NCBI GenBank assembly: GCA_014860455.1
Contig: JACZJQ010000085.1
Coordinates: 1-41,225 of the forward strand
Length of the DNA: 41,225 nt
Reading direction: 5' to 3'
DNA from: Bryobacteraceae bacterium
Lineage (GTDB): Bacteria; Acidobacteriota; Terriglobia; Bryobacterales; Bryobacteraceae
Part shown: one piece after another, positions 27,221 to 35,942 of the stretch
Layout of the letters: each line of letters begins with the position of its first letter
How positions within the stretch are numbered: position 1 is the first letter of the stretch
Position numbers and translations under genes: made by a program
Notes under the pieces: model-generated
Seen by the model: the letters and a program-made list of their open reading frames with translations, nothing else
Databases searched by the model: none
What the model was told of the DNA's origin: nothing

Positions 27221-28207
27221 ATGTCTGGAAATCCAAGCTCCAACAGGAAGGTTATCCTTCTGCGTCCGAGGGGGTTCTGCGCCGGTGTGGTGAGGGCGAT
27301 CGATGTCGTTAAAATCGCTCTCGAACTCTACGGAGCGCCCATCTACGTGCGGAAGGAGATCGTGCACAACCGCCATGTGGTGGAGGAGTTGCGCGAACTT
27401 GGCGCGATCTTCGTCAACGAACTGCATGAAGTTCCCGATGGCAGCCGGGCGATCTTCTCGGCCCACGGCGTCTCGCCTGCCGTGCGCAAAGCAGCCCTGG
27501 AGAGAGATCTAAAGGTTGTCGACGCCACCTGCCCTCTGGTGACCAAGGTCCACCTGGAGGCGGTGAAGTTCGCCCGTTTGGGCTTCACGATTCTACTGAT
27601 CGGCCACAGAGACCACGAGGAGATCGAGGGCACGTTCGGAGAAGCCCCTTCATCGACCTTCATCATCGAAACCGAGCAGGATGCCGAGAAGGTGCAGGTT
27701 CCCGATCCGTCGAAGGTCTGCTATCTGACCCAGACAACGCTTTCACTCGACGAAACCCGCGGCATCATCGAAGTGCTCAACCGCCGGTTCCCGCAGATGA
27801 CAGGCCCGAAGTCGCAGGACATCTGCTACGCGACCGAGAACCGTCAGATGGCGGTGAAGGCGGTTGTGCCGATGTGCGAGTTGCTGCTGGTGGTTGGATC
27901 GCAGAACAGTTCGAACTCGAAGCGACTGGTCGAGGTCTGTCAGAACAACGGCGTGCCGGCGTATCTGCTGGATGACAAGTCGTATCTGAAGGACGAGTGG
28001 TTCGACGGCGTCGAGACGGTTTCGGTGACCGCCGGCGCATCGGCTCCGGAACACCTGGTTCAGGAGCTTGTCGAGGCGCTGGTCGGGCGCGGATACCGCA
28101 CGGTGGAAGAGGTGGACATCATCGAAGAGGATGTCCGGTTCCAGTTGCCCGGCGAGTTGCAAGGTGCGGGCGTCCGTTTGACAACCATTTCAACAACAGT
28201 GGCATGA
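27221..28207 (+). CDS. ispH: IspH/LytB, HMBPP reductase
   Basis: 328 residues. Three iron-sulfur cysteines are present: Cys20 (RPRGFCAGVVRA), Cys104 (DATCPLVTK) and Cys202 (DICYATENRQ). His49 (EIVHNRHVV), His82 (FSAHGVSP), His132 (GHRDHEEIEG) and Thr172 (LTQTTLS) are the substrate-binding residues. It converts HMBPP to IPP and DMAPP, the last step of the MEP pathway. The frame is open to 26921, but that stretch overlaps the divergent gene; the ATG at 27221 gives the normal length. It overlaps the next gene by ATGA. As first gene of the operon it ties C5 supply to hopanoid synthesis. Confidence 0.97.
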   Translation: MSGNPSSNRKVILLRPRGFCAGVVRAIDVVKIALELYGAPIYVRKEIVHNRHVVEELRELGAIFVNELHEVPDGSRAIFSAHGVSPAVRKAALERDLKVVDATCPLVTKVHLEAVKFARLGFTILLIGHRDHEEIEGTFGEAPSSTFIIETEQDAEKVQVPDPSKVCYLTQTTLSLDETRGIIEVLNRRFPQMTGPKSQDICYATENRQMAVKAVVPMCELLLVVGSQNSSNSKRLVEVCQNNGVPAYLLDDKSYLKDEWFDGVETVSVTAGASAPEHLVQELVEALVGRGYRTVEEVDIIEEDVRFQLPGELQGAGVRLTTISTTVA

Positions 28208-29256
28208 GCGCCGGACTACATCAGGGAAGGGACACGCTGCCACGGTCCGTTGCCGAAGCGGCCGCGCGCGCCGAAGCCGCATTGCGCCGTTGGACGGGCG
28301 AGCCTGAAGTCCGCATCTCTCTGCCCGCGGCCGAGACGCTGCCGGCGTTTCTCGGCCAGATTGCTGCGCCGGTGGAGTTTGCCGTGTTGCCTTCAAGGAT
28401 GGCCTCGGTGCCGCGTCAGTGGAGGCCTTTGTTTCTGCCGCTGGCGATCCTGCAGGCCGAAGGTCGGACGTATCGCCCCGATGGGGCGGGCGGCCAGTCC
28501 TGGACCGCGGATGTCTCGGTCATCGACCGTCTGAAAACGAAACTGGGCGGAGGGGCGCTGGCAGCGGCCAAACGGGCGCTGCTCGAAACCGGCGGGCAGG
28601 CGATGTGGTGGCTGCCCGCGCGGTTGGAACTGCTGGCTGCGGGGGAAGCCGCAACGCCGGCGATCCAGGGCCGCTGGGAATTGACCAAACGAATTCAGGC
28701 CGATCTGTCGGTGCAGGACGCGGCACTGTCGCGTCTGGCTCTGGACGCCGATGCTCCGGCGGCGTTCGATCCGGGCCGCGCGGACCGGTTGATCGAGGCC
28801 CAGGGAGGCGAGGGCTGTTGGAGCCTGAACGAGTTTGCCGGTCCGGTGGTCTCGACCGCCTTTGCGCTGGATGCGCTGAACCGCCAGGGCGTTGACGATC
28901 GCGACGCGGCGGTGCTGCGCGGCGGCGAATGGCTTCGTTCGGTCCAAAACGCAGACGGCGGCTGGGGTTCGGACGAACGACAGAATTCCACGCCGGTGCG
29001 AACTGCGTGCGCCGTCATGGGACTGGTGGCCGGAGGCGACGCCGGAAGCGAAAGCGTGCGCCGCGGCCTTGACTCTCTGCTGCGAACGCAAGGCGAAGAT
29101 GGCCGCTGGCAGGATGACGGTCTCAACTGGGCGCTGCTCGCCGGCTACGCCGAGTGCCGTTCCACGCTGGACGGGCTCACGCTGCCGTTGATTGCGTTAA
29201 AGACATTCGTGAGACATTTTAGCGCCGGGACGTTTACCGGCGCCACTGGGGCTTAA
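28204..29256 (+). CDS. Half-size squalene-cyclase/prenyltransferase-repeat protein
   Basis: 350 residues, about half the length of squalene-hopene cyclase. Three QW-type repeats are visible in the C-terminal half: QGGEGCW (200-206), QNADGGWGSDE (248-258) and QGEDGRW (296-302). They mark an alpha/alpha barrel. I find no DxDD protonation motif, the catalytic acid of class II cyclases. The N-terminal 150 residues carry no motif I know. It is not a functional cyclase by these signs; it could bind squalene or hopane, or assist the cyclase or HpnH. The start overlaps ispH (ATGA) and its stop lies three bases before hpnH. Confidence 0.85.
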   Translation: MSAGLHQGRDTLPRSVAEAAARAEAALRRWTGEPEVRISLPAAETLPAFLGQIAAPVEFAVLPSRMASVPRQWRPLFLPLAILQAEGRTYRPDGAGGQSWTADVSVIDRLKTKLGGGALAAAKRALLETGGQAMWWLPARLELLAAGEAATPAIQGRWELTKRIQADLSVQDAALSRLALDADAPAAFDPGRADRLIEAQGGEGCWSLNEFAGPVVSTAFALDALNRQGVDDRDAAVLRGGEWLRSVQNADGGWGSDERQNSTPVRTACAVMGLVAGGDAGSESVRRGLDSLLRTQGEDGRWQDDGLNWALLAGYAECRSTLDGLTLPLIALKTFVRHFSAGTFTGATGA

Positions 29257-29259
29257 ACC

Positions 29260-30369
29260 ATGAGATTCCCTCTTTCACTGACGGCCGGCATGGCCGGATA
29301 CATTGCGAAGAACAAGATGATGCCGAAGCCGGAATGGCAGTTGAAACGGGCGGGCGAGCCGGACCCGAGCAACCCGTTCCAGATTCTGCACTCCTCGCTC
29401 GGCAACCAGCAGACCACGCCGCACCCCATGATCAACAAGCGCTTCCCGCTGGTGCTGATGCTCGAGCCGCTGCACGCCTGCAACCTCACGTGCACGGGTT
29501 GCGGGCGGATCCGCGAGTATGAGAACACAATCACCGAGCAACTATCCGCCGAGCAGTGTTTGAACGCGGTGGACGAATGCGGCGCGCCGATCGTCTCGAT
29601 CTGCGGCGGCGAACCGTTCCTGTATCAGCCGATCGCGCAATTGACGCAATCGATCCTGGATCGCGGTAAGCACATCTACCTGTGCACGAACGGCATGTTT
29701 ATCCGGCGGCGGTTGAAAGAGTTTCAGCCCAACCCGCGGCTGTTCATCAACGTCCACCTGGACGGCATGGAAGCCACGCACGACCTGTGCGTCGAGCGCG
29801 AGGGCGTCTTCAAGGAAGCCGTCGAAGGCATCAAAATCGCCAAGGCGGCCGGCTTCAAGGTCTGCACCAATACGACGATTTACAAGGAAACAGACATGGC
29901 CGAGATCCGCGCCCTATTCCAGTTCCTTGAGACGCTTGGCGTGGACGGCCACATGGTGTCGCCGGCCTATGGCTATTCGGCGGTGAACGACCGCGAGATT
30001 TTCATGACACGCGATGACGTGATTGAGAAGTTCCGGGACGCGTCGGAATTGTGGGAGCGGTTCCCGATCAATAATTCACCGATCTACCTGGACTTCCTGA
30101 AAGGCGAGCGCGACCTGCCCTGCACCGCCTGGGGCAACCCGACCTACAACACGTCGGGCTGGAAGGGCCCATGCTATCTGATCACCGACGGCCACTATAA
30201 AACGTTTGAGGAGTTCATGACGCGCACGCCCTGGGAGAGCTACGGCGCGGGCAACGATCCACGTTGCGAGCACTGCATGACGCATTGCGGCTACGAGCCG
30301 TCGGCGGCGCTGGGCATCAATTCGAAGAGCGGCGACAGCATGAAGTTGTTGAAGTGGGCGCTGAAGTAG
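29260..30369 (+). CDS. hpnH: HpnH, radical SAM adenosylhopane synthase
   Basis: 369 residues. The radical SAM cluster motif CxxxCxxC is Cys74, Cys78 and Cys81 (ACNLTCTGCGRI). Other HpnH marks are AVDECGAPIVSICGGEPFLY, YLCTNGMFIRRRL, NVHLDGMEATHD and CTAWGNPTYNTSGWKGPCYL. The C-terminal cysteine set DPRCEHCMTHCGYEPS completes the protein. It joins the 5'-deoxyadenosyl radical to diploptene, giving adenosylhopane. Residues about 22-60 (PKPEWQLKRAG through QQTTPHPMINK) look like an insertion compared with the family as I recall it. Spacing to the preceding gene is three bases. Confidence 0.95.
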   Translation: MRFPLSLTAGMAGYIAKNKMMPKPEWQLKRAGEPDPSNPFQILHSSLGNQQTTPHPMINKRFPLVLMLEPLHACNLTCTGCGRIREYENTITEQLSAEQCLNAVDECGAPIVSICGGEPFLYQPIAQLTQSILDRGKHIYLCTNGMFIRRRLKEFQPNPRLFINVHLDGMEATHDLCVEREGVFKEAVEGIKIAKAAGFKVCTNTTIYKETDMAEIRALFQFLETLGVDGHMVSPAYGYSAVNDREIFMTRDDVIEKFRDASELWERFPINNSPIYLDFLKGERDLPCTAWGNPTYNTSGWKGPCYLITDGHYKTFEEFMTRTPWESYGAGNDPRCEHCMTHCGYEPSAALGINSKSGDSMKLLKWALK

Positions 30370-30400: not shown

Positions 30401-31375
30401 GTGAGGCCCGCGCTGGTGACCGGGGCGTCGGGTTTCCTGGGCTGGCACGTGGCGCGTGTGCTCATCGAGCGCGGCTACCGGGTCCGGGGGCTGGCGCGGC
30501 GTGCCGGGTCGATCACAGATCCGGAGATCGAGGAGATCTCAGGCGACCTGCGAGACCCGGATTCGCTGCGGCGGGCGGTGGCGGGCTGCGAGCTGGTGTT
30601 TCATGTGGCGGCCGATTACCGGCTCTGGGCCAAGGACCCAAGCGAACTCTACCGGTCCAATGTGGACGGGACGAGGAACCTGCTTGCCGTATGTGAGAAC
30701 GCGGGAGTGGATAGAATCGTCTATACAAGCACGGTTGGATGTATTGGGCTGGTCAAAGGTTCGCTTGGAGACGAGTCAACGCCGGTCCGATTGGAAGATA
30801 TGACGGGGAGTTACAAGCGGTCGAAGTTCCTCGCCGAGCGCGAGGCGCTCGGTTTCGCATCGCGAGGCTTGCCTGTCGTCATCGTGAATCCCACCGCGCC
30901 CGTGGGCTCGCATGACGTGAAGCCGACGCCGACTGGGCAGACGATTCTCGATTTCATCCGCGGCCGTATGCCGGCTTACCTCGACACGGGCCTGAACTTG
31001 GTGGATGCGCGCGAGACGGCCGAGGGCCACTGGCTGGCTTGCGAAAAGGGCAAGCCGGGCGAGCGCTACATTCTAGGCAGCGAGAATCTGACGCTCTGCG
31101 AGATCTTTCATAAGCTCTCGTCGATCACAGGCAGGCCGGCGCCGAAGATGCGGATTCCTTGGGTGGTGGCATTCGGCGCGGGCGTGGTGTCAACGGCTCT
31201 CGCCAACGTGACCGGCAAGCCGCCGCGGGCGCCGCTGGACGCGGTGCGGATGGCGCGCAAGCGGATGTTTGTTTCGACGGAAAAGGCGCGGAGGGAGTTG
31301 GGTTTCAATCCGTCCCCTGCCGAGAATGGCCTGCGCCACGCCGTCGAGTGGTTTGAGGCGAATGGCTATGAGTAA
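30401..31375 (+). CDS. hpnA: HpnA, hopanoid-associated SDR epimerase/dehydrogenase
   Basis: 324 residues, an extended short-chain dehydrogenase. NAD binding is by GASGFLGWHVARVL at the start, the catalytic pair is YxxxK in GSYKRSKFLAE, and NPTAPVGSHDVKPTPTGQ is a typical HpnA segment. The start is GTG at 30401, with GGGAGG about 10 bases upstream. HpnA is known by its steady place in hopanoid clusters, and its substrate is not settled; a sugar-nucleotide epimerase role is only inferred from fold. It overlaps hpnG by 14 bases. Confidence 0.92.
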   Translation: MRPALVTGASGFLGWHVARVLIERGYRVRGLARRAGSITDPEIEEISGDLRDPDSLRRAVAGCELVFHVAADYRLWAKDPSELYRSNVDGTRNLLAVCENAGVDRIVYTSTVGCIGLVKGSLGDESTPVRLEDMTGSYKRSKFLAEREALGFASRGLPVVIVNPTAPVGSHDVKPTPTGQTILDFIRGRMPAYLDTGLNLVDARETAEGHWLACEKGKPGERYILGSENLTLCEIFHKLSSITGRPAPKMRIPWVVAFGAGVVSTALANVTGKPPRAPLDAVRMARKRMFVSTEKARRELGFNPSPAENGLRHAVEWFEANGYE

Positions 31376-32078
31376 TCAGCCGATTGCCGTGATTGCGGCG
31401 ATGAGCCGGGAGTTTTCGGGACTTTTGGCCCATGCCACGACCGTTGAGGCGGTGCGGACGCGGGCAGCGTACGCCTGCAGGGTGAGCATCGGCGGCCGTG
31501 AGTGGCTGCTGGTGGCCGATGGTCCCGGACCGATGCGCGCCGCGGCTGCCGCCAAGGTGGCGCTTGGGTTGGGCAAGCCGGGGGCTATGGTCTCGACCGG
31601 GTATTGCGGGGCTCTGGACCCGGCTTTGAACGCCGGCGACATCTTCCAGGCCGACACGATCATCGGCGAAGCAGATGAGCGCTGGAGCACTTGCCGGGCT
31701 GAGGCGGATTGCGCCACGGCCGAGTCAGGCGCGCTGCTTTCGAGGGACCGGGTGGTTGTCACGGCCAAGGAGAAGCAAGCGCTGCACAGTTCGCTGGGTG
31801 CAAGGGCCGTCGAGATGGAAGCCTCGGCGGTGGCCAAGTCGGCGGGCGATGCCGGCATTCGGTTCTATTGCATCCGCGTGGTGAGCGATTCCGCGCACGA
31901 CACGCTTCCCATTGATTTCAACCTTTACCGCACGCCATCGGGGCGATTCAGCCAGGGCCGGATTCTGGGCGCGGCGCTGGCACGCCCGTCTTCGTTCCGT
32001 GGACTGATCAAGCTCAACGCCGACAGCAAACGGGCATCTCGTATTTTGGGAGACTACCTTGTCCACTGTGAGTTCTGA
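31362..32078 (+). CDS. hpnG: HpnG, adenosylhopane nucleoside phosphorylase/hydrolase
   Basis: 238 residues with the purine-nucleoside phosphorylase fold. Marks are VIAAMSREFSGLL, DGPGPMRAAAAAK, ALVSTGY-like VSTGYCGALDP and the MExE motif VEMEASAVAKSAG, with DSAHDTLP near the end. HpnG removes adenine from adenosylhopane to give a ribosylhopane product. An ATG at 31362 and another at 31368 are possible, both inside the hpnA end; GAGG lies a few bases upstream. It overlaps the following dehydrogenase by 20 bases. It is closely related in fold to MTA/SAH nucleosidases, but the hopanoid setting decides the name. Confidence 0.9.
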   Translation: MAMSNQPIAVIAAMSREFSGLLAHATTVEAVRTRAAYACRVSIGGREWLLVADGPGPMRAAAAAKVALGLGKPGAMVSTGYCGALDPALNAGDIFQADTIIGEADERWSTCRAEADCATAESGALLSRDRVVVTAKEKQALHSSLGARAVEMEASAVAKSAGDAGIRFYCIRVVSDSAHDTLPIDFNLYRTPSGRFSQGRILGAALARPSSFRGLIKLNADSKRASRILGDYLVHCEF

Positions 32079-33150
32079 ACCCATACCGTCCGCCATGAGG
32101 GCCGCCGTCTATACCGGCAACGGCCGTCTTGAAGTGCAGCAGATTCCGGTGCCCGAGATCGGGCCGGGCGAACTGCTGGTGAAGGTTCATGCTTGCGGGA
32201 TCTGCCACACGGATCTAAAAAAGGTGGAGCATGACCTGTTGCCGCCGCCGCGGGTGTACGGCCACGAAACGGCAGGCGAGGTGGTGAAGGTGGGGGCGGG
32301 AGTGGAGAAGTTCAAGGTGGGCGACCGTGTGGTAGCGTTCCATCACATCCCGTGCCGGAACTGTTTCTATTGCGACAGGAAGCTGTATGCGCAGTGCGCG
32401 GGGTATAAAAAAGTTGGCATTACGGCCGGCTTCGAGCCAGCCGGCGGAGGGTTCTCCCAGTACATCCGGATTATGGACTGGATTGTGCGCGATGGCGTGC
32501 TGTTGATCCCGGATGGAGTTTCCTATGAAGTGGCCAGTTTTGTCGAGCCGGTGAATACCTGCCATAAAGCGGTGGTGGAGATGGACCCGCAACCCGGCGA
32601 CACGGTGCTGATCCAGGGCCAGGGTCCGATCGGGCTGATCTTCACGATGCTGGTGAAGCGGTCTGGCGCACGGATCATCGCCACCGACACGATGGAAGAG
32701 CGGCTGGCGCTGGCGCGCAGGTTTGGCGCCACCGAGGCCGTGGACCCCAGGACGACGGATGTGGTGGCGCTGGTGAAGCCGATGACCGAAGGGCGGGGCG
32801 TGGATCAGGTGTTCGTCGCGGCGTCGGCGCCTGGCATCGTCGAGGAGGCGTTGAGGGCGTCGAGGCCGGGGGCGAAGATTTTGCTTTTCGCTCAAACATC
32901 GGATACAGAAAGGATCGAATTGTCGGGAGCGGGCATCTGCAAGGATGAACGTTCGCTGATCGGAGTTTATTCGGCTTCGGTTGATTTGCAGGCCGAGTCG
33001 GCCCGGCTGGTTCTTGAAGGAGAATTGCCCGTTGCGGATCTGGTGAGCCACTCTCTCGGCCTTGATAAGATTAATGAAGGCATTCGCATGGCATTGCATC
33101 CGGATGGCAAATCGCTGAAGATTATGGTTCAGCCACAGAGGACGTCTTAA
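32059..33150 (+). CDS. Zn-dependent MDR alcohol dehydrogenase 1 in hopanoid operon
   Basis: 363 residues. Catalytic zinc ligands are Cys49 (ACGICHTDLKK), His69-Glu70 (YGHETAGEV) and Glu163 (SFVEPVNTCH). Structural zinc cysteines are 99, 102, 105 and 113 (PCRNCFYCDRKLYAQC). The nucleotide fold is GQGPIGLIFTML. It would reduce an aldehyde or oxidise an alcohol with NAD(P). The start is TTG at 32059, favoured by GGGAG six bases upstream; a later ATG at 32095 has no ribosome site. Position directly after hpnG suggests a ribosylhopane substrate. A sugar-alcohol dehydrogenase unrelated to hopanoids is the alternative. Confidence 0.9.
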   Translation: MSTVSSEPIPSAMRAAVYTGNGRLEVQQIPVPEIGPGELLVKVHACGICHTDLKKVEHDLLPPPRVYGHETAGEVVKVGAGVEKFKVGDRVVAFHHIPCRNCFYCDRKLYAQCAGYKKVGITAGFEPAGGGFSQYIRIMDWIVRDGVLLIPDGVSYEVASFVEPVNTCHKAVVEMDPQPGDTVLIQGQGPIGLIFTMLVKRSGARIIATDTMEERLALARRFGATEAVDPRTTDVVALVKPMTEGRGVDQVFVAASAPGIVEEALRASRPGAKILLFAQTSDTERIELSGAGICKDERSLIGVYSASVDLQAESARLVLEGELPVADLVSHSLGLDKINEGIRMALHPDGKSLKIMVQPQRTS

Positions 33151-34191
33151 GTGAACACCGAAATGCTGGCCGCGGTGCTCTACGGGAAGGAACAGGTCCG
33201 CGTAGAGAGAGTAGCTATTCCAAAGCTGGATCCGGGGGATGTACTGGTGCGTGTGCGCACGGCTCTGACGTGCGGCACGGATGTCAAGGTATTCCGGCGC
33301 GGCTATCACGCCAGGATGATTGTGCCTCCGGCGCTGTACGGGCATGAGTTCGCGGGCGACATCGTCGCCGTGGGCGACCATGTGGACAACTTCCGGGTGG
33401 GGCAGCGGGTGGTGGCGGCCAATTCGGCGCCCTGCCTGAACTGCTTCTACTGCCGGCGCGGCTCGGAGAACCTGTGCGAGGACCTGTTGTTCAACAACGG
33501 GGCCTACGCCGAGTACCTGAGGGTTCCAGCGCGCATCGTCCAAAGAAACCTCTACGAGATCCCGCCTCACCTGGGCTACCATGACGCCGCACTGGTTGAA
33601 CCGCTGGCCTGTGTCCTGAAGGGTTTGGAGGATTCCAAACCGAAGCCGGGCGACAACCTGGTGGTGATCGGACAAGGGCCGATCGGCATGATGTTTGTCA
33701 GGCTGGCGAAGGTGTATGGCTGCCGGGTGATCGCGCTCGGCCGCCGGACCTCGCAACTGGACCGCGCCCTACGCATGGGCGCCGACGACGCGTTGATCAA
33801 CACCAACGACGACGAAGTGGTGCGCCAGATCCGGAAACTGACAAGCGGGCACGGCGCCGACATTGTGATCGAAGCGGTCGGCAATCCCGAGACCTGGGAA
33901 CTGTCGGTGAAACTGCTGCGCCGCGGCGGCGTGGTGAACTTCTTCGGCGGCTGCCCCAACGACACGCGGGTGAACCTGGAAACGTCGCTGCTGCACTACT
34001 CCGAACTGACTTGCCTGGCGAGCTTCCACCACACGCCGGCCTACATCCGCAAGGCGTTGGACGTCGTTTCGCACCGGCACATAACGGCCGACGATTTCAT
34101 CAATCGTGAAGAGCCGCTCGAGAATTTGCTGGACGTCATGCGCCACTTGATGAGCCATAACGGCCACATGAAGACGGCCATCATCCCCTAG
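33151..34191 (+). CDS. Zn-dependent MDR alcohol dehydrogenase 2 in hopanoid operon
   Basis: 346 residues, the second of the tandem pair and clearly paralogous in layout but distant in sequence. Catalytic ligands are Cys41 (LTCGTDVKVF), His65-Glu66 (YGHEFAGDI) and a Glu in LVEPLACVLKG. Structural cysteines are 95, 98, 101 and 109 (PCLNCFYCRRGSENLC). The dinucleotide site is GQGPIGMMFVRL. A GTG at 33151 follows the previous stop directly, with AGAGGA upstream; ATG at 33163 is a second option. The two enzymes could form a heteromer or act in series on the hopanoid side chain. Substrate is unproven. Confidence 0.9.
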   Translation: MNTEMLAAVLYGKEQVRVERVAIPKLDPGDVLVRVRTALTCGTDVKVFRRGYHARMIVPPALYGHEFAGDIVAVGDHVDNFRVGQRVVAANSAPCLNCFYCRRGSENLCEDLLFNNGAYAEYLRVPARIVQRNLYEIPPHLGYHDAALVEPLACVLKGLEDSKPKPGDNLVVIGQGPIGMMFVRLAKVYGCRVIALGRRTSQLDRALRMGADDALINTNDDEVVRQIRKLTSGHGADIVIEAVGNPETWELSVKLLRRGGVVNFFGGCPNDTRVNLETSLLHYSELTCLASFHHTPAYIRKALDVVSHRHITADDFINREEPLENLLDVMRHLMSHNGHMKTAIIP

Positions 34192-34206: not shown

Positions 34207-35118
34207 GTGTTCCGTCAGCCAATCGATTTCCTTGCCGATCCCCAGTTCATGCAGCGGACCTGGTCCGTCGATGAATCTCTGGAGTACACACGCTGGTTGG
34301 CAACCCACCATTACGAGAACTTCCACGTCGTCAGCCTGTTCCTGCCCAAGGCGCTGCACCAGGACTTCTTCAACGTGTATTCGTATTGCCGGTGGTCTGA
34401 CGATCTGGGCGACGAGACCGGTTCGGCCGAGACATCCCTGAAACTGCTCGAATGGTGGCGTGGACTGCTGCAGTCAATGTATGCGGGCCACGCTCCATCG
34501 CATCCGGTCTTCGTGGCGCTGGCGCGGACGGTGGAACGGCACAGGATTCCAGTCGAGCCGTTCGACAACCTGCTGGACGCGTTCATCCAGGACCAGACCC
34601 AGACCCGCTATCAGAATTGGGACGAGGTGATGGCCTATTGCGTCAATTCTGCCAATCCTGTGGGCCGGCTGGTGCTGATGCTCGGCGGCTACCGCGACGA
34701 GGAACGGTTCCGGCTCTCGGACGCCACCTGCTCGGCGCTGCAGCTTGCCAATTTCTGGCAGGACGTCTCGGTGGACTTGTTGAAGGACCGCGTCTACCTG
34801 CCGCTCGATTTGTTCGAAAAGCACGGATACTCGGTCCCGCAGCTCTACCGGCGCGAGTCCGCGCCACAGTTCGCCGCGCTGATGAAGGAGGCCGTGGATT
34901 ATACACAGAAGCTGTTTGAGGCCGGGCTGCCGCTGGTGAAGATGCTCGACAAACGGCTGGCTCTCGACGTTGACCTGTTCTCGCGTGGCGGCATGAGGGT
35001 GCTCGCCAAGATCCGGCGGCAGCGCTACGATGTGCTGTCGAAACGGCCATCAATTTCAAAGACAGAACGGGCACTGCTGCTGGTCCGCAGCCTGGCCCGG
35101 ATCACGCTTGCGGCATGA
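34207..35118 (+). CDS. hpnC: HpnC, squalene synthase-type enzyme
   Basis: 303 residues of the trans-isoprenyl synthase fold. The first Asp-rich motif is SDDLGDE (Asp65, Asp66, Asp69) after YSYCRW, and the second is NFWQDVSVDLLKDR (Asp186, Asp190), both with Mg-binding spacing. HHYENFHVVS near the N-terminus is an HpnC hallmark. HpnC acts on presqualene diphosphate made by HpnD, giving hydroxysqualene. The start is GTG at 34207 with a weak GCGGG upstream; ATG at 34249 is an alternative. It overlaps hpnD by ATGA. Confidence 0.95.
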   Translation: MFRQPIDFLADPQFMQRTWSVDESLEYTRWLATHHYENFHVVSLFLPKALHQDFFNVYSYCRWSDDLGDETGSAETSLKLLEWWRGLLQSMYAGHAPSHPVFVALARTVERHRIPVEPFDNLLDAFIQDQTQTRYQNWDEVMAYCVNSANPVGRLVLMLGGYRDEERFRLSDATCSALQLANFWQDVSVDLLKDRVYLPLDLFEKHGYSVPQLYRRESAPQFAALMKEAVDYTQKLFEAGLPLVKMLDKRLALDVDLFSRGGMRVLAKIRRQRYDVLSKRPSISKTERALLLVRSLARITLAA

Positions 35119-35942
35119 CGACGATCGGCGACTCTTACGAACACTGCGTCGCGGTTGCCCGCGCCAGGGCGAAGAATTTCTACTGGTCGTTCGTGCTCCT
35201 GCCGCGCGAGAAGCGCCGGGCGATGTGCGCGGTCTATGCCTTCATGCGTGAGTGCGACGACCTGTCCGACGGTCCGCGAGCCTCGGCCGAGGCGATGGCT
35301 GCCTGGCGCGCCGACCTCGACCGCACGCTCGGCGGCGATCCCGCCGTGCACCCGATTTGGCCCGCGCTGCACGATGCCGTGGAACGCTTCCGCATCCCTC
35401 ACCACTACCTGCACGAGATGATCGACGGCGTCCAGAGCGACCTTGCGGCTCACGTCTTCGAGACCTTCGACGAACTCTACCGATACTGCTATCTGGTGGC
35501 GTCAGTCGTCGGCCTGACCATCATCCACATCTTCGAGTTCGACGACCCCTCGGCGCCGGCGCTGGCCGAGAGATGCGGCATCGCTTTTCAGTTGACCAAC
35601 ATCATCCGCGACGCCGGCGAGGATCAGTCGATGGGCCGCGTCTATCTTCCCCAGGATGATCTGCGGCGGTTTGGCGTCACTCGATTGGACCAGGATAGCC
35701 CCGAGTTGCGGCGTCTGCTGGCCCATTACGGCGAACGCGCCCGGGCCTATTACGACGAGTCCCGGCCACTGGTTCGCATGATGCACAGCGACTCGCGGGC
35801 ATCGCTGTGGGCGCTGATCGAGATCTACAGCCGGCTGCTGCGGCGGATCGAGAAATCGGGCTACGATGTGCTGTCGCGGCGCATCCGGCTGTCGAACTGG
35901 GAGAAAGCCCGCATTCTGATCGAAAGCCGTTTCCGCGCCTGA
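35115..35942 (+). CDS. hpnD: HpnD, presqualene diphosphate synthase
   Basis: 275 residues. NFYWSFVLLPREKRRAMCAV, the first Asp motif ECDDLSDG (Asp48, Asp49, Asp52) and the second RDAGEDQSMGRVYLP (Asp166, Asp170) are all in place. It condenses two farnesyl diphosphates into presqualene diphosphate. Translation is coupled to hpnC through the overlap. No hpnE (the hydroxysqualene reductase) follows; the next gene is a STAS protein. The operon thus ends here or runs into the STAS gene after a 50-base gap with no terminator seen. Confidence 0.96.
   Translation: MTTIGDSYEHCVAVARARAKNFYWSFVLLPREKRRAMCAVYAFMRECDDLSDGPRASAEAMAAWRADLDRTLGGDPAVHPIWPALHDAVERFRIPHHYLHEMIDGVQSDLAAHVFETFDELYRYCYLVASVVGLTIIHIFEFDDPSAPALAERCGIAFQLTNIIRDAGEDQSMGRVYLPQDDLRRFGVTRLDQDSPELRRLLAHYGERARAYYDESRPLVRMMHSDSRASLWALIEIYSRLLRRIEKSGYDVLSRRIRLSNWEKARILIESRFRA

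Follow-up and report, generated by a model that had tools for sequence, protein, structure and literature searches.

A zinc dehydrogenase gene conserved behind hpnG in Terriglobia as a tentative candidate for the step forming bacteriohopanetetrol

The window analysed here (the whole 41,225-nucleotide stretch of contig JACZJQ010000085.1, assembly GCA_014860455.1, from a Bryobacteraceae bacterium of the Terriglobia) carries a hopanoid biosynthesis cluster in which two genes for zinc-dependent dehydrogenases of the medium-chain dehydrogenase/reductase (MDR) type, here called MDR1 and MDR2, stand between hpnG and hpnC. The hopanoid bacteriohopanetetrol (BHT) is a membrane lipid and a parent of the hopane fossils that are used to read Earth history. 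A reading of the window made from its sequence alone had described two intact zinc MDR open reading frames (ORFs), with all of their zinc ligands, between hpnG and hpnC, and both ORFs and their ligands were confirmed at 32059-34191. The genes of the cluster are as follows, with scores in bits against the cut-off of each family:

29260-30369, + strand: hpnH, adenosylhopane synthase (radical S-adenosylmethionine enzyme); TIGR03470, 420.1 bits, cut-off 225.05
30401-31375, + strand: hpnA, hopanoid-associated short-chain dehydrogenase/reductase (SDR)/epimerase; TIGR03466, 450.1 bits, cut-off 367.65
31368-32078, + strand: hpnG, nucleoside phosphorylase family (ATG 31368 inside a longer ORF, 31269-32078); TIGR03468 is the best family at 132.9 bits, below its cut-off of 187.1
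32059-33150, + strand: MDR1, zinc MDR dehydrogenase of 363 amino acids with an NAD-type cofactor motif (D210); TTG start; PF08240 and PF00107
33151-34191, + strand: MDR2, zinc MDR dehydrogenase of 346 amino acids with an NADP-type cofactor motif (G197-R198-R199); GTG start; PF08240 and PF00107
34207-35118, + strand: hpnC, squalene synthase component; TIGR03464, 336.1 bits, cut-off 250.45
35115-35942, + strand: hpnD, presqualene diphosphate synthase; TIGR03465, 257.7 bits, just below the cut-off of 278.6

The cluster had also been called an overlapping unit, which holds for hpnA/hpnG and for hpnC/hpnD, but MDR1 and MDR2 only abut and hpnG overlaps MDR1 solely with the TTG start. An in-frame ATG at 32095 (M13 of MDR1), kept in at least 97% of 67 MDR1 sequences, may be the real start, in which case hpnG and MDR1 would not overlap, but several MDR1-orthologous ORFs extend further upstream than this position. 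HpnG is named throughout on its best-family score together with its position, the next family scoring 86.1 bits for the protein of the window.

Both MDR proteins are full length and have the PF08240 (ADH_N, GroES-like) and PF00107 (ADH_zinc_N) domains above the Pfam gathering cut-offs. The catalytic zinc ligands are C49, H69, E70 and E163 in MDR1 and C41, H65, E66 and E150 in MDR2, and the structural ones are C99, C102, C105 and C113 and C95, C98, C101 and C109 respectively (catalytic and structural ligands being told apart by alignment to threonine dehydrogenase and from background knowledge of MDR enzymes); all are at least 97% conserved among the 67 MDR1 and 54 MDR2 sequences. Where the second Rossmann strand ends, an acidic residue usually marks an NAD-type enzyme. 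Residue 210 of MDR1, at this place, was acidic in 67 of 67 sequences (D in 65, E in 2), whereas the equivalent stretch of MDR2 is mostly G-R/K-R, with position 197 acidic in a single one of the 54 sequences, and its cofactor loop aligns with that of the NADP-dependent secondary alcohol dehydrogenase 1y9a. Going by these motifs and the usual rule, MDR1 looks NAD-type and MDR2 NADP-type.

Neither protein reached an NCBIfam equivalog cut-off, and threonine dehydrogenase and scyllo-inosose dehydrogenase were the best matches. L-threonine 3-dehydrogenase (TDH, TIGR00692) gave 167.7 bits for MDR1 and 162.2 for MDR2 against a cut-off of 458.35, the cyclitol/polyol-type MDR scyllo-inosose 3-dehydrogenase IolM (NF041097) gave 161.8 and 163.9 against 450, and the NADPH-dependent aldehyde reductase Ahr (NF047908) gave 77.5 and 103.5 against 470, placing neither protein in any of these families, although IolM ranks among the three best NCBIfam matches for either protein. 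The nearest families of MDR1 are dehydrogenases of the polyol/amino-alcohol type, and its closest solved relatives by sequence are TDH enzymes (e.g. PDB 2d8a, E 1.2e-40), whose zinc ligand positions and acidic cofactor residue align with its own, but MDR1 is far below the TDH cut-off and has a lipid biosynthesis context. The likeness of MDR2 to 1y9a concerns an 86-residue Rossmann stretch; at full length MDR2 is closest to PDB 4cpd and 4ej6, not to 1y9a. A tree of 72 rows placed MDR1 and MDR2 on separate sides, each with its own orthologues. An AlphaFold2 model of MDR1, built from a 4-row alignment, had a mean pLDDT (predicted local distance difference test) of 55.1 and was of poor quality, and a plasmid collection gave no match at E 1e-40.

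That an MDR gene is conserved next to hpnG beyond this genome was seen both in the family of the window (a sample of 61 genomes, its own included) and in a second family, f2, of a phylum sample of 297 genomes. MDR1 orthologues were found in 58 of the 61 family genomes (60-78% identity, the window itself aside) and HpnG matches in 59, and in all 58 MDR1 came immediately after hpnG in the same orientation, with 1-82 nucleotides between the matches; because this order recurs in 58 of 58 genomes, the adjacency is not due to chance. MDR2 followed MDR1 directly in 54 of the 58. The only family genome with HpnG but without MDR1 was G048, where hpnG lies at a contig end, and two genomes (G039 and G060, each 82% complete) had neither. 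G060 does have a more remotely related MDR of this type (L241:2-1162), ahead of genes that appear by eye to be for sugars (rhamnose/inositol).

Across the phylum sample, MDR1 orthologues were delimited by a clear break in E values, from 2.6e-104 to 4.8e-63, and MDR2 orthologues by E below 1e-100, giving 46 and 48 genomes respectively, with HpnH above its cut-off in 76. HpnH and MDR1 occurred together in 42 genomes, HpnH alone in 34, MDR1 alone in 4 (G173, G270 and G341, which are 84-93% complete, and G280) and neither in 217 (Fisher P = 1.7e-25, uncorrected for kinship). MDR1 adjoined hpnG in 32 of the 46 genomes: 3/3 in family f1, 28/28 in f2, 1/1 in f50, 0/12 in f28 and 0/2 in f39.

The two dehydrogenases were found to be separable. 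MDR2 is present in each of the 46 phylum-sample genomes that have MDR1, and in 18 of 18 genomes of the other families the genes adjoin, but they do so in only 9 of the 28 f2 genomes. MDR1 remains behind hpnG in the other 19, and MDR2 there directly precedes hpnC and hpnD (19 of 19, all loci having been opened, including those of G190 and G154), so that the order hpnG-MDR1-MDR2-hpnC-hpnD of the window and its relatives broke exactly between both dehydrogenases. In G190 hpnG and MDR1 are kept as a pair some 48 kb from squalene-hopene cyclase (SHC), hpnH and hpnA. Contig ends were rejected as the cause of the split, because every MDR2 stretch retrieved is internal to its contig, as are those around MDR1 in G172, G340 and G207. 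The earlier suggestion that MDR1 and MDR2 might form a heteromer fares poorly, given the parting of the genes in 19 of 28 f2 genomes and their different cofactor motifs; as a requirement of gene linkage we reject it, yet all 46 MDR1 genomes keep both. In G254 (L252:5790-6852) MDR2 is followed by hpnC in two neighbouring ORF fragments, and this copy of hpnC may be broken or frame-shifted.

Both gene positions have been published. Sinninghe Damsté et al. 2017 (PMC5462960) describe, for SD1-SD3 Acidobacteria, a cluster C with hpnA, hpnG and, next after hpnG, an 'unknown gene' termed ug1, and a cluster A in which hpnC-D-E is preceded by a second such gene, ug2, whose product is often a Zn-binding alcohol dehydrogenase some 350 amino acids long; in the main text, as far as it was covered, the product of ug1 is unstated. 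MDR1 has the place of ug1 (58 of 58 family and 28 of 28 f2 genomes) and MDR2, at 346 amino acids, that of ug2 (in the window and in the 19 of 19 split f2 genomes), and we infer from position that they are the same genes. One passage of that paper has SD3 clusters without ug2 beside hpnC and another has ug2 in all SD1 and SD3 genomes; in our family sample MDR2 stood directly behind MDR1 in the 54 genomes mentioned. The authors also note that C. thermophilum, a producer of BHT and of its cyclitol ether, has no ug2. According to a 2025 paper (PMC12583986), the enzyme turning ribosylhopane into BHT is still not established, and in the open-access literature, judged from listings and first abstract lines, no paper was recognised as naming MDR1 or MDR2 the reductase. 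The suggestion of the sequence-only reading that an MDR gene next to hpnG is a candidate for this step thus stands in that the association is real and old within Terriglobia and a zinc MDR is chemically suitable, but as an observation, without function, it was not new. Two points are added here: it is MDR1, not MDR2, that goes with the hpnG arm, and their cofactor motifs differ.

We tentatively propose, at somewhat less than an even chance, that MDR1 is a Terriglobia-specific enzyme reducing the HpnG product to BHT. From the integrity of the gene, its zinc ligands and cofactor motif, the conserved order and the separability of MDR1 from MDR2, all of which are observed, we infer substrate, direction and cofactor use as follows. 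HpnH couples 5'-deoxyadenosine to diploptene, and HpnG takes off the adenine to leave ribosylhopane or its phosphate. MDR1 would most likely bind the aldehyde in open-chain form (ribose C-1', hopanoid C-35) and polarise it through its catalytic zinc, and a hydride from NADH would then yield BHT. MDR2 would be a separate dehydrogenase of NADP(H) type travelling with hpnC-hpnD, and in other lineages the reaction proposed for MDR1 would be carried out by an enzyme not homologous to it.

Several observations weigh against this proposal. The cell-free reduction of ribosylhopane has reportedly been described with NADPH, and MDR1 looks NAD-type. The identity of HpnG is itself given by matches below the cut-off, which was passed by none of 80 phylum and none of 61 family genomes, and of 14 well-known genomes searched as controls, 7 and 6 gave matches of this kind. 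The adjacencies of hpnG and MDR1 in the family and in f2 are inherited and are no independent events, and the 19 f2 splits may go back to a single old event, the split genomes included in the tree grouping together. A search for SHC and HpnG covered 80 of 83 selected genomes, among them 73 of the 76 with HpnH, and 28 of the 31 tested acidobacterial genomes with HpnH but without MDR1 had matches to both, therefore needing another enzyme for BHT. G280, reported as 100% complete, has MDR1-MDR2 (L107) but no SHC, HpnH or HpnG, and G126, of the same family, has the pair (L111) on another contig than SHC-hpnH-hpnA-hpnG, the tandem being outside any hopanoid cluster in both. MDR1 lies beside an HpnG match in none of the 12 f28 genomes, where it follows hpnA directly in the loci opened; HpnG is weakly matched in this family, and of 3 candidates tested 2 score better to futalosine hydrolase/methylthioadenosine (MTA) nucleosidase models. 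Finally, hpnA is an equally placed rival, and at E < 1e-100 the 36 HpnH genomes described below, none titled Terriglobia, gave no MDR1 orthologue.

The other three of the 31 genomes were G309 (81% complete, no SHC match) and G067 and G332, f2 genomes with SHC and HpnH but without HpnG or MDR1, unlike their congeners G231 and G190, which carry all four. G332 retains hpnA and MDR2, and G067 has no MDR2 orthologue either. Since hpnG and MDR1 adjoin in the congeners, one deletion would suffice for their joint loss, and we rejected this loss as proof of function and count it as weak evidence only. On contig C102 of G067 (L102:8455-10676) shc-hpnH is followed by what appear, by eye and recall, to be insertion-sequence transposase ORFs and then by the contig end; hpnA, hpnG, MDR1 and MDR2 were not found on this contig, nor HpnG, MDR1 or MDR2 in the genome.

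The role proposed for MDR1 could instead belong to HpnA, an SDR, or to an unlinked reductase, with MDR1 and MDR2 as general polyol/sugar or redox-balancing dehydrogenases that had settled in the operon. Sinninghe Damsté et al. 2017 (PMC5462960), propose hpnA for the ribosylhopane step, and cite evidence that Burkholderia does not need it to make BHT and that Rhodopseudomonas has no hpnA. We found hpnA beside hpnG in 8 of 11 opened genomes of other families that lack MDR1, with none seen in the stretches opened of the remaining three (G119, G294 and G111), and the MDR pairs of G280 and G126 outside any hpn cluster would suit this alternative as well; a bystander, however, would hardly explain the hpnG-MDR1 pair surviving the break-up of the cluster, and we regard this reading as rather unlikely. 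Where MDR1 is missing, no oxidoreductase except HpnA stood out by eye as a constant neighbour of hpnG in a comparison of families common to at least 3 of 10 loci, one of which (L110) came from the MDR1 genome G126, and with crude ORF calling in GC-rich DNA.

MDR1 might also act in the hopanoid side-chain arm but at another step, such as an oxidation or C-34 epimerisation, perhaps with MDR2 as a partner of opposing cofactor (NAD-linked oxidation, NADPH-linked reduction), as the lineage restriction of both genes, their opposite cofactor motifs and the presence of MDR2 in every MDR1 genome of the phylum sample would suggest. This we consider unlikely, as MDR2 is kept in G332, which is without HpnG and MDR1 matches, and goes with hpnC-hpnD and not with hpnG where the cluster is split; moreover, we know of no unusual side-chain product from these bacteria. 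The conserved NADP-type motif of MDR2, aligned to NADP-dependent alcohol dehydrogenases, would suit reductive biosynthesis, but that MDR2 and not MDR1 is the ribosylhopane reductase seems very improbable given the same partition of the split clusters and its occurrence in G192 without MDR1 or HpnH and in G332 without an HpnG match.

The proposal for MDR1 can be extended, with more doubt, to state that MDR1 is the ribosylhopane-to-BHT reductase of Terriglobia and that the step was solved independently elsewhere by non-homologous enzymes. The best 80 HpnH loci, from several phyla (a survey without Alphaproteobacteria and Actinomycetota), were fetched, and MDR1 stood beside hpnG in three (L204, L210 and L220), all carrying Acidobacteria or Terriglobia titles; many of the remaining loci showed no hpnG within the fetched stretch. 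Of 37 of these genomes searched in full, only one, the Terriglobia metagenome-assembled genome (MAG) G391, held an MDR1 orthologue at E < 1e-100, with hpnA, hpnG, MDR1, MDR2 and an hpnC/hpnD fusion in succession; none was found at this threshold in the 36 HpnH genomes not titled Terriglobia, several of which are small, incomplete MAGs. Homologues of 40-42% identity occur in nine cyanobacteria, but were rejected as support, no hpn match lying alongside in the six opened, and one genome of a further, 5-genome phylum had a match at E <= 1e-60 (36% identical). Not all genomes that have SHC, HpnH and HpnG matches also have MDR1 (28 acidobacterial exceptions), which together with the 36 genomes not titled Terriglobia argues against MDR1 as one general BHT enzyme; a single universal enzyme is disfavoured, and a lineage-specific one is compatible with these results. 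If MDR1 were the reductase of Terriglobia and other BHT makers used non-homologous enzymes, no single gene would mark BHT formation across bacteria. With a candidate fixed behind hpnG in two families (58 and 28 genomes), the gap in BHT synthesis becomes testable, and the split between MDR1 with hpnG and MDR2 with hpnC points out which dehydrogenase to try first.

Some minor observations concern the same genes elsewhere. In the f28 loci opened (L135, L134 and L240) there was hpnA but no convincing HpnG, most f28 genomes having SHC and HpnH, and an MTA/futalosine-type nucleosidase might replace HpnG in this family. The MDR tandem of G126 follows an ORF that reads, by eye, like a proline dehydrogenase, and single distant MDRs were seen at L117, L184 and L188. 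In five stretches of family f1 (L245-L249) no hpnH match lies between the cyclase-like ORF and hpnA, unlike in the window, and the order hpnG-MDR1-MDR2-hpnC-hpnD is unchanged. The ORF beside hpnH in the window (28207-29256) has 349 amino acids only, with its SHC match confined to the C-terminal part; the corresponding cyclase-like ORF of the cluster has 559-753 amino acids in five other family genomes, and the window's own genome has a full-length cyclase elsewhere (G000:C228:2437-4299), so the cluster may hold a shortened cyclase, or one put to another use.

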